From IMG/VR virus record IMGVR_UViG_3300044608_001065, positions 1-21,614 of that record: a stretch of 21,614 nucleotides of DNA. One strand, 5' to 3'. Positions 10,938-13,727 of this stretch are shown here, piece after piece (within the stretch, counting starts at the first letter, position 1; each line of letters begins with the position of its first letter). Origin of the DNA: a virus. Position numbers and translations under genes: made by a program. The notes under the pieces are model-generated. The model saw only the letters and a list, made by a program, of their open reading frames with translations, was not told where the DNA came from and ran no database searches.

Positions 10938-12200
10938 TTAGGGAACCAGATAGCCATACCCGCTCCCAGAGGCGCAAGGCACGAGGTCACCAGCCAAGCT
11001 GCAACGCAGGTGGATGATGTAGTAGCCCCACTCAGGGAAGATCTGCTTCACCGCGCAAGCCATCTTGGCCCGCCAGTAACCGCTGTTCTTGTCAGGGTTG
11101 CAGTTCTTGTCGTACTCGTTGATCCAGCGGAAGTCTCCGCGATAGTTCTGAGCATCATAGACAAGTTTGCCAACCTTGAGGTTCGGGTTCGGGACGAGCC
11201 ACTCCATCGCCTTGGGATGGAAGATAACCGTGGAGGTATACTTCGCATTCTTGTAGGCGGGGTTGACGATAGCTTTGGTGCCCTTGAAGGCCGAATCCGT
11301 GATATACGGAGCAACCTCAACCAGCGTTCCGCCAGCGCCATCATTGAAGCGTTTCGGGAACGGACGGCTGTGGAACACATAACCAGCGTAGCTCTTCTTG
11401 GGAAGAAGCATCTGACCATTGGGTCCAAGCAGATCGTTGACGCGATCACTCCAACGGATATCCATGCGGATCTCGTCGTTGAGCTTAACCAACTGCTCAA
11501 TGGTGGCGCGGTCAGACATGACATTGAAAACGGGAGAACCGTCATCGGTAACAGCATCGCCGTCATCGCCAGCGTTGTCCGCATAGAGCGTGTCGTAGAT
11601 CTGACGCAGGACGCCAGTCGTAAGAACACTCGTCGGGGCCGTAAGGTCACTGATCGTGGCCAGATCGTTGGTGATGGAACCAGTGGAACCAAGACCAGTC
11701 TGTTTGTCAAAACCAGCCTCAACACTCATCACGTTGACGTTGGAAATATAATCGTTGTCGTAACGCTTGATCCACTCGACGTTGACGTTGTCGGCCAAGA
11801 TCTTGATGTAGTTGTTGACATCGTCAATCGGGAAGGCCGAAGTGCGAACGTCTTCCAAGCAGATCCAATCCGACTCAACAGCCTGATGGCGGAGCGAAAA
11901 GTTTTTCTGATCGAAAGCGTAACCAACCTTTTTAACGGGAGCCAAACAGGCATTGTCCGAAGAGGTCGGGGTTCCGCTGATGCCAACTTCTTCCCAGCCG
12001 CTGCCAGAGGCAATCGTGCGGCGGGCAATAATGTTGGTGATCGTTTTGCCCATGTTGTCGGGGAATGCCGACTGAGTAACAAGACGAAGATAAGGATCTT
12101 TATAAAGACCCAAGCGATGGGTGCCAAGGGCAATGCGTCCAGTTTCCCTGACGAAATTGTCATTGATAGCCTCGCAAGTAGTAGCAGCTTGTGCTGACAT
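10938..12200 (-). CDS. Major capsid protein
   Basis: 420 residues from ATG 12200. It is the natural third member of the portal-scaffold-capsid run and has the expected length for a HK97-fold or P22-like head protein. The text is typical of a capsid protein: an early helix-rich arm (EAINDNFVRETGRI), a long stretch with SDRATIEQLVKLNDEIRMDI and a late domain with KAMEWLVPNPNLKVG. It has no export signal, membrane segment or enzyme motif. The leader is A-rich (AAATAGAAAGAAACTAAAACT before ATG) with no strong Shine-Dalgarno. A putative dedicated promoter and folded leader lie just upstream. The order scaffold then capsid, plus size and composition, support the call; the fold was not tested by search. 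Confidence 0.82.
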   Translation of the reverse strand: MSAQAATTCEAINDNFVRETGRIALGTHRLGLYKDPYLRLVTQSAFPDNMGKTITNIIARRTIASGSGWEEVGISGTPTSSDNACLAPVKKVGYAFDQKNFSLRHQAVESDWICLEDVRTSAFPIDDVNNYIKILADNVNVEWIKRYDNDYISNVNVMSVEAGFDKQTGLGSTGSITNDLATISDLTAPTSVLTTGVLRQIYDTLYADNAGDDGDAVTDDGSPVFNVMSDRATIEQLVKLNDEIRMDIRWSDRVNDLLGPNGQMLLPKKSYAGYVFHSRPFPKRFNDGAGGTLVEVAPYITDSAFKGTKAIVNPAYKNAKYTSTVIFHPKAMEWLVPNPNLKVGKLVYDAQNYRGDFRWINEYDKNCNPDKNSGYWRAKMACAVKQIFPEWGYYIIHLRCSLAGDLVPCASGSGYGYLVP

Positions 12201-12368
12201 AGTTTTAGTTTCTTTCTATTTGGTTTAAGGGTTAGTTTTGATTTCAGGGCATAGAATGCCCGTCTATCGGTTAAGTTCTGGGCCGCGACCAGAGATTTAC
12301 GGCTACAAATTTTGAAGGCGCTAACTCGCCAGCGAGTGTCCGCGACCAACTCGGACTTCAGTCTTGGG
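12201..12368 (-). promoter_or_regulatory. Structured 5' leader of capsid mRNA
   Basis: The non-coding stretch between scaffold and capsid is packed with hairpins on the transcript strand. They are 12338-12342/12352-12356 (GTCCG/CGGAC) and 12324-12328/12333-12337 (ACTCG/CGAGT, 4-base loop), with the adjoining pairing 12313-12316/12357-12360 (TGAA/TTCA) enclosing both as a three-way junction. Further along are 12277-12281/12289-12293 (TCTGG/CCAGA) and 12247-12252/12256-12261 (GGGCAT/ATGCCC). The 9-mer CCGCGACCA occurs twice (12283-12291 and 12340-12348), each time in a loop and stem edge. The last 46 bases before the ATG are unpaired and A-rich. No gene was found in this stretch. It could be a stabilising 5' leader or a translational regulator. 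Confidence 0.6.
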
Positions 12369-12373
12369 TGCAA

Positions 12374-12400
12374 ATTATTACATTTGCATTAAATTGTCAA
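12374..12400 (-). promoter_or_regulatory. Sigma70-type promoter for the capsid gene
   Basis: On the - strand, a perfect TTGACA (-35, 12400 to 12395) is followed after 15 bases by AATAAT (-10, 12379 to 12374), five of six matches to TATAAT. The 15-base spacer is shorter than the ideal 17. The site starts 11 bases after the scaffold stop and points at the capsid gene; the start of transcription would be near 12367. It would allow capsid protein to be made in excess of scaffold and portal. Nothing comparable was seen ahead of scaffold or portal. Confidence 0.55.
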
Positions 12401-12410
12401 TAGCAGAATT

Positions 12411-13727
12411 TTAGCGGAATATAGATTTGCCGAAATTCATTAGGCTATCGGCGTCCGCGTCATCATCATCGCTGACATCGGTCTCGGTGGCCTTGCCAAG
12501 ACTCGGAGTGGCTCCGACCAATCCTTCCAACTGAGTTTTAAGCTCTTTGATTTCGGCGTCCTTAGTCTCGCTTACTTTCTGCAACTGGGCACTATAATGG
12601 TTGATGGCGCTCTCAAGGAACGGGACTACGGATGCACGGGCCAAGATGGCGCTTCGGTCTTCGACGCTCAAGCGGTCCAGATTGGTTTCGGCGGCGTTCT
12701 TCTTGGCGCTGCGGATATGGCCATTCCACTCATCCTGTCCCTCGACTTCTTGGAGGAAGTTGTAGCGGTCTTCCAGATTAGTCCAAGTTTTGGCCGTGAA
12801 GGCTTTCTGGAGTCGCAAGTCGTTCTCAATGAATTCCTGTTCGGACTGGGCCTTGCGGGCGTTTTCGGCTTCGGCCAAGGTTTCGGCCTCCTTTTGGAAC
12901 CGATCATGGTATTGGGCCAACTCATGGTATTTGTCGGCCATTTTGACAATGGACAACTGCTCCATGCGCTTGAAGTCGCTGGTCAGGTCTTCTAGAGAGT
13001 CGATTCTCTTTCGGGCATCGGGCTCGGTGAGGGCCTGCCAGAGTTTACTGAAGTCGGCGTCATTGGCCTCCGCGATGGCCTTTAAGTCGCCCTGAAGGCC
13101 CGCCAGAGGCTTTTTGATGGATTCGACGTATTCTGGACTTCTTTCAAAGTTGGCGGTCTTTAGCTCGCGATTAAGCTCGGCAATGCGGGTTTTGTAATTT
13201 TCAAGTTCCTCTTGGAGGGATTTGACGGTCTCCCCCTCGTATTTGCCAACCTTCTCTTTGGTGGCGTCCAGTTCGGCCTTGAGGCGATCCCGCTCTTCGC
13301 GGGCTTTTTTCATTTCGCCTTTAATCTCTTTCCAGCTTGAGATGCCTTTCTCAGAATCATCACCTTCGGGCTTGTCTGCCACTTCTTTGTCTTGGAAGTG
13401 GGGGTTGAGCGGAAGATCTTCATCGGAATCTTCGGATTTTGTTTCGGCCTTCTCTGCTTGCTTCTCTGTAGCCGACTTCTTTGTGATCTCCTCTACCGCC
13501 TTGACCGCTTCTTCCTTGGTGGCCTTGGGCTTGACCTTGGGCTCCGCCTTGACGGGTTTCTCTTCTTTGGGAGCTTCCGCTTTAGGGGCCTCCTCTTTCG
13601 GCGTTTCGGCGGGTTCTGGAGTTGCTTCGACTGCGGGTACTTCATTTACTTCTTGGTTCTTGCCACCAAAGATGGTTCCAGCAAAGTCTGCTTCGCCCGT
13701 GAGGGCTGAGTTGAGGATATCGGCCAT
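12411..13727 (-). CDS. Capsid scaffold protein
   Basis: 438 residues from ATG 13727, without an evident Shine-Dalgarno. The N-terminal quarter is a low-complexity Pro/Glu/Lys/Ala linker (PEPAETPKEEAPKAEAPKEE and on). Residues about 125-330 form long charged heptad helices (EMKKAREERDRLKAELDATK onwards), and the C-terminus is acidic (DVSDDDDADAD) before LMNFGKSIFR. This is the usual make-up of a phage internal scaffold: extended, helical, charged, with a short capsid-binding end. Its position immediately upstream of the capsid gene and downstream of portal supports the call. No protease motif is seen. In the particle it would direct shell assembly and leave before or during DNA packing. Confidence 0.82.
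   Translation of the reverse strand: MADILNSALTGEADFAGTIFGGKNQEVNEVPAVEATPEPAETPKEEAPKAEAPKEEKPVKAEPKVKPKATKEEAVKAVEEITKKSATEKQAEKAETKSEDSDEDLPLNPHFQDKEVADKPEGDDSEKGISSWKEIKGEMKKAREERDRLKAELDATKEKVGKYEGETVKSLQEELENYKTRIAELNRELKTANFERSPEYVESIKKPLAGLQGDLKAIAEANDADFSKLWQALTEPDARKRIDSLEDLTSDFKRMEQLSIVKMADKYHELAQYHDRFQKEAETLAEAENARKAQSEQEFIENDLRLQKAFTAKTWTNLEDRYNFLQEVEGQDEWNGHIRSAKKNAAETNLDRLSVEDRSAILARASVVPFLESAINHYSAQLQKVSETKDAEIKELKTQLEGLVGATPSLGKATETDVSDDDDADADSLMNFGKSIFR

Follow-up and report, generated by a model that had tools for sequence, protein, structure and literature searches.

The phi29 pRNA is a structured phage RNA that is separate and acts in trans in packaging, and the Mu-gpT-DE RNA motif, like other bioinformatic phage motifs, is a predicted structured RNA beside a phage head gene. 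Leaders of the stabilizer type, such as the ompA 5′ UTR, are proposed to slow decay by base-pairing near the 5′ end, and ompA uses plain hairpins for this. The leader of T4 gene 32 contains a pseudoknot and, downstream of it, an A/U-rich tract without structure that covers the ribosome site (PMC3014915).

The stretch of DNA analysed here (the window) is a 21.6-kb virus fragment from IMG/VR (record IMGVR_UViG_3300044608_001065). It contains a previously uncatalogued, intricately knotted RNA of uncultured phages, located in the leader of a putative major capsid gene. As in the gene 32 leaders of T4, T2 and RB69, pseudoknotted pairing in a phage 5′ leader is followed by an open, unstructured A/U-rich tract that runs to the start codon. 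Whereas the gene 32 leaders have a single pseudoknot ~ 67 nt upstream and belong to the gene of a single-strand binding protein, the leader described here has three interleaved pairings that start from the predicted initial bases of the mRNA and precede a putative capsid gene. Unlike the phi29 pRNA, this RNA is the leader of a message, and in contrast to the plain hairpins of ompA, its 5′ end would sit buried in a pseudoknot, from which stabilization is proposed. It also differs from the Mu-gpT-DE motif in that no Rfam family matched: with Rfam 15, no family reached the gathering cut-off in the whole window and none was found at E values of up to 5 within 12150–12440. This agrees with the initial annotation of this DNA, which had not recognized the fold as a known RNA family.

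More than 90 loci of uncultured phages keep this elaborate knotted leader at the predicted start of a putative head-protein message. Promoters and ribosome sites are usually invoked to explain how phages balance many capsid copies against few portals; the leader RNA is a compact element, with natural compensatory variants, for testing how capsid copy number is controlled.

The locus and its predicted promoter

The ORF list of the window contains a series of minus-strand genes for proteins of 758, 99, 438 (charged) and 420 aa. The last two are separated by the gap of 210 bases (12201–12410, minus strand) that the initial annotation had described. Gene order and size suggest that the series includes portal, scaffold and capsid genes (Table 1), and the "major capsid" identity given earlier likewise follows from gene order and protein size. 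The 420-aa protein had no match in Pfam, PHROG or PDB that would identify it as an HK97-fold major capsid protein, and the predicted models of this protein and of the putative portal had pLDDT values of 29.6 and 39.0, respectively, too low for a search by fold. Because neither sequence nor fold evidence confirmed the assignment from gene order, we use "capsid" as a putative label throughout. The protein has many relatives in IMG/VR (64–93% identity) and none in INPHARED phages or GTDB genomes. Head proteins of the phage group (window and record G011, L292–L295) had no match to PHROG, Pfam or PDB.

The phage group is an undescribed lineage with records of up to 73 kb. Record G011 encodes a 613-aa protein that weakly matches the terminase large subunit (phrog_2), and also DnaG-like and DnaB-like proteins. 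In the window, a 395-aa open frame (11010–12197, plus strand) lies antisense to nearly the entire putative capsid gene and is probably a codon-bias shadow; G011 has a similar frame of 417 aa antisense to its putative capsid gene.

The gap carries a TTGACA-like −35 element, a spacer of ~ 17 bases and a TAnnnT −10 element (12372–12400), which we take as a promoter, presumably of the sigma-70 type. The initial annotation had combined TTGACA with AATAAT. The −35 element holds, but AATAAT would leave a spacer of 15 bases, and the conserved −10 element is TAATTT with a spacer of 17. The promoter is phased to the RNA, being conserved at a fixed distance from it among relatives. Exactly six bases lie between the −10 element and AAGAC in 31 of the 37 upstream regions with the full promoter pattern, and we therefore placed the predicted start on the first A of AAGAC. 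This is within 1–2 bases of the start near 12367 that had been proposed. The exact pattern TTGACA-N17-TAnnnT has a single match in the window, ahead of the RNA, and most of the long relative records searched contain it once, also before the RNA. A generic sigma-70 scan did not flag the site. A search with PF00940 for a phage RNA polymerase gave no match, and a control search was likewise empty.

Inverted repeats with varying arms surround the −10 or the −35 element (12366–12410 and the same region of relatives), with GTGCAAA/TTTGCAC, GGGAAA/TTTCCC, ATAGGAA/TTCCTAT and ATTCTACT/AGTAGAAT as arms. Repeats of at least six pairs were present in 29 of 50 distinct promoter regions compared with 13.7% of shuffles, and possibly represent an operator or a DNA hairpin.

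Fold of the leader RNA

Table 1. Features of the putative scaffold–capsid gap and its flanking genes (window coordinates).
Feature	Position	Strand	Remarks
Putative scaffold gene, 438 aa, upstream	12411–13727	minus	ORF list; identified by gene order and composition
−35 element TTGACA	12395–12400	minus	TTGAC 33–37 bases before the RNA in 50/50 distinct upstream regions
−10 element TAATTT (TAnnnT), spacer 17	12372–12377	minus	TTGACA-N17-TAnnnT in 37/50 upstream regions
Predicted transcription start (+1)	12365	minus	First A of AAGAC, 7th base after −10
PK-A 5′ strand GACU	12360–12363	minus	Paired with P1-loop GGUC in 98.5% of cells
P1 hairpin GUCCG / 9-nt loop AGUUGGUCG / CGGAC	12338–12356	minus	100% of cells paired; two-sided change at 4/5 pairs
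PK-A 3′ strand, P1 loop GGUC	12344–12347	minus	
P2 hairpin ACUC / GCUGGC / GAGU	12324–12337	minus	About ten stem versions in relatives; 3/4 pairs changed on both sides
PK-B 5′ strand GGC, in P2 loop	12328–12330	minus	
PK-B 3′ strand GCC	12317–12319	minus	99.0% of cells paired
PK-C, P3 interleaved with P4	12277–12303	minus	
P3 GCCGU/GCGGC	12299–12303 / 12282–12286	minus	99.7% of cells paired
P4 UCUGG/CCAGA	12289–12293 / 12277–12281	minus	96.7% of cells paired; 5/5 pairs change on both sides
P5 hairpin GAU..GGGCA/UGCCC..AUC	12240–12268	minus	88.8% of cells paired; 4/5 pairs two-sided
A-rich open tract up to ATG	12201–12239	minus	Unpaired probability averages 0.80 in the final 45 nt ahead of ATG
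Putative major capsid gene, 420 aa	10938–12200	minus	Gene order and size

Six helices (P1, P2, P3, P4, PK-A and PK-B) were first read by eye from divergent leaders. The comparative fold comprises the hairpins P1 and P2, the interleaved pairings PK-A, PK-B and PK-C, and a final hairpin P5 (Table 1). The P1 loop is always 9 nt long and contains UUGGUC (UUGAUC in L125). PK-A, which pairs into this loop, is nearly invariant, with compensation from GAC/GUC to GAU/AUC in a single lineage, L125/L156. P2 has 3–4 pairs among relatives and a loop containing GYURGY; the RGY of this loop pairs with a downstream GCY to form PK-B, in which GGC/GCC is replaced by AGC/GCU in 10 distinct sequences. About eleven versions of P4 occur, including UCUGG/CCAGA, UCUAG/CUAGA, UCUGC/GCAGA, UCCAU/GUGGA, UCCUCA/UGAGGA and UCCGC/GCGGA, and P4 is imperfect in L063. 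From the end of PK-C to the ATG there are 76 bases.

This fold retains part of what had been proposed. The initial annotation described five hairpins, among which P1, P2 and the 3′ hairpin at 12240–12268 stand, but the three interleaved pseudoknot pairings had been missed. It also held two hairpins in a three-way junction by an outer TGAA/TTCA helix. In the relatives only 70% of the cells of this helix are paired, no better than in shuffles, and 52 of 66 sequences are unpaired at one of its pairs. The dedicated promoter and folded leader are well supported; the outer helix of the proposed three-way junction was wrong. Between P5 and the ATG, the A-rich sequence indeed lacks a strong Shine-Dalgarno. 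The 9-mer CCGCGACCA does occur twice in the window, but it is not kept in relatives and is incidental; we rejected it as a functional duplicate because it is lost when P1 becomes CAGAC and is absent from other leader types.

In the covariance-model alignment, 97.6% of the pairing cells are paired, compared with 37–43% when partners are slid by 1–3 columns. Two-sided changes are found at 15 of 26 pairs, a number reached by none of 500 shuffles, so that the compensatory stem changes by which the earlier proposal was to be judged are clearly present among relatives. Alignment used a model that included P1, P2 and P4, so the counts for these helices are biased in favour of the structure; PK-A, PK-B and P3 are paired in 98.5–99.7% of cells although they were outside the model. 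Support for P5 is looser, as is its alignment compared with the other helices. All counts are of sequences and not of independent events, and because leaders also recombine, we claim no tree-based significance for them.

Many G-U pairs are kept on the sense strand (e.g., columns 81–98 and 30–48). On the other strand these are A-C mismatches, which argues for an RNA of the sense (minus) strand and not for a DNA structure. The 90-nt RNA core is 92–98% identical to the window in many relatives, far more than the 4-fold codon sites of the gene (55–68%), indicating strong constraint on the leader. Recombination clearly exchanges leader types, and recent exchange of DNA segments, or constraint on promoter DNA, might be thought to explain the conservation with no function for an RNA. 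We regard this as extremely improbable given that most helices show compensatory changes on both sides in divergent leader types and that pairing drops to ~ 40% with slid partners. In the anatomy, that is the promoter, the fold and its position, we have high confidence.

Support for the fold is comparative and not energetic. The single-sequence folding that had been suggested as a check gave energies no better than those of shuffles (z-scores of −0.92 and +0.27, not significant) and was rejected as proof, and the most stable structure predicted for the window leader is a different one, without the conserved fold. Two further candidates were discarded: a switch pairing GGGUUAG/CUAACCC is possible in one leader type only, and a conserved leader peptide is argued against by a 2-base indel inside the RNA core, which breaks any frame.

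Distribution and proposed role

In 92 of 93 relative loci, the covariance model identified one copy of the RNA, immediately before the putative capsid gene; in the exception (L124), only 81 bases are present before the gene. Whole records contained one copy in 18 of 19 cases and no second copy. The remaining record, L077, went undetected since its leader diverges too far from the model (E 0.079), and the same helices are readable in it by eye. Degenerate motif scans of IMG/VR, the first of which gave at least 80 matches, returned among the matches listed only contigs with the putative capsid gene, with the exception of five loci that the covariance model did not recognize. No convincing copy was found in the GTDB contigs scanned or in a sample of 595 bacterial genomes; the one match, in G431, was rejected as a host copy, being a low-GC terminator-like sequence without UUGGUC.

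The compensatory changes and the constant sense-strand position before one gene family mark the RNA as a predicted cis-acting structured 5′ leader. A role in trans, as a packaging or assembly RNA or as a small regulatory RNA with the adjacent gene merely co-transcribed, would suit the intricate fold, the single copy per genome and the tight conservation. It is nevertheless improbable, as the RNA adjoins the gene in all relatives at a near-constant spacing (in most, a leader of 206–214 bases separates the ATG from the long ORF before it) and has no copy elsewhere. Nor does a terminator separate the RNA from the gene: we found no intrinsic terminator (GC-rich hairpin with U-run) on the minus strand of 12201–12410, and no U-run follows P5. 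A metabolite-sensing riboswitch controlling capsid synthesis is, in our view, very improbable. Several interleaved pairings are typical of aptamers, but there is no conserved expression platform (neither a terminator nor a conserved competing helix across the start region), and no convincing copy was found in 595 sampled bacterial genomes.

The fold has persisted through changes in its sequence, and the leader RNA very probably controls the putative capsid message. Transcription from the sigma-70-type promoter would start at ~ 12365, and the mRNA would begin with the conserved RNA. Bases 3–6 of the message would pair into the P1 loop to form PK-A, P2 would provide a second loop contact, and the third pseudoknot would follow, then P5 and, leading up to the ATG, the open A-rich tract for ribosome entry. 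At the 5′ end, AAGAC, the GAC would be buried in PK-A and about two bases would be free. The B. subtilis enzyme RppH requires two or more unpaired nucleotides at the 5′ end, with a preference for at least three (PMC3997798), so that an end buried in PK-A would be expected to give decay little access, assuming similar nucleases in the host.

A buried 5′ end and an insulated start region would slow 5′-dependent decay, and the level of the capsid message would be independent of the upstream portal–scaffold transcript; its own promoter and leader would give an abundant, long-lived message. We see about an even chance that the RNA works in this way, as a cis-acting 5′ leader that slows 5′-dependent decay and keeps the putative capsid message abundant. 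The message had been described as monocistronic, strong and stable, properties that are likewise predicted. A broader proposal, which we make tentatively and with somewhat less than even confidence, is that the leaders form a new RNA family, a cap-like 5′-terminal triple pseudoknot extending from +1 that protects or gates the head-protein mRNA and sets capsid copy number. If true, these phages would possess a dedicated RNA device for this purpose.

Exchange of leaders among relatives

Tight conservation of the leader could equally reflect a binding site for a protein or ligand. The main rival to a stabilizing leader is a protein-bound operator, since the T4 gene 32 operator shares the plan of a pseudoknot and an open tract. 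The pseudoknots would be bound by a protein of the phage, for which the capsid, the scaffold and a single-strand binding protein are possible candidates, and this protein would, when in excess, spread over the A-rich start region and shut off translation, as in the case of T4 gp32. We consider such autoregulation rather unlikely. Its layout is that of the gene 32 leader, a pseudoknot followed by an unstructured A/U-rich tract (PMC3014915), and the loops are highly conserved in sequence; however, PK-A and PK-B pairing already explain much of the loop conservation, and no candidate RNA-binding protein was identified. Leader types have also been exchanged between similar capsid genes, unlike what tight coevolution of leader and protein would give: the putative capsid protein of L001 is 93% identical to that of the window, and its leader core 63%.

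A second pattern of exchange was observed in G007, which is 97% identical to the window from the portal gene to 12413 (the scaffold stop codon), only 78% identical across the leader and the capsid gene, and 98% identical again beyond. Taken together, G007 and L001 indicate that leader and gene can be exchanged together or apart, and that the fold is always kept. The content upstream of the promoter varies among relatives: it can be absent altogether or consist of a small gene, a GIY-YIG-like endonuclease, a tRNA-Met or a terminator-like hairpin; the promoter, the RNA and the gene stay together despite this variation. The terminator-like hairpin, with a T-run, lies between the scaffold gene and the promoter in the distant relatives L063, L070 and L077.

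In G007 (L308, 11634–12386), the ORF of the GIY-YIG-like homing endonuclease (250 aa) is located between the scaffold gene and the capsid promoter. The ORF runs into the promoter at its 3′ end, and its presence coincides with the replaced leader–capsid cassette. The small gene, which is absent from the window, encodes a protein of 72–111 aa starting with MQPWD and lies between the scaffold gene and the promoter in some relatives (L029, 2436–2771; L033, 1218–1553; L031, 2571–2789; L069, 2523–2780). The tRNA-Met (CAU) gene is found directly before the capsid promoter in L076 (2666–2740) and L056 (2707–2774).
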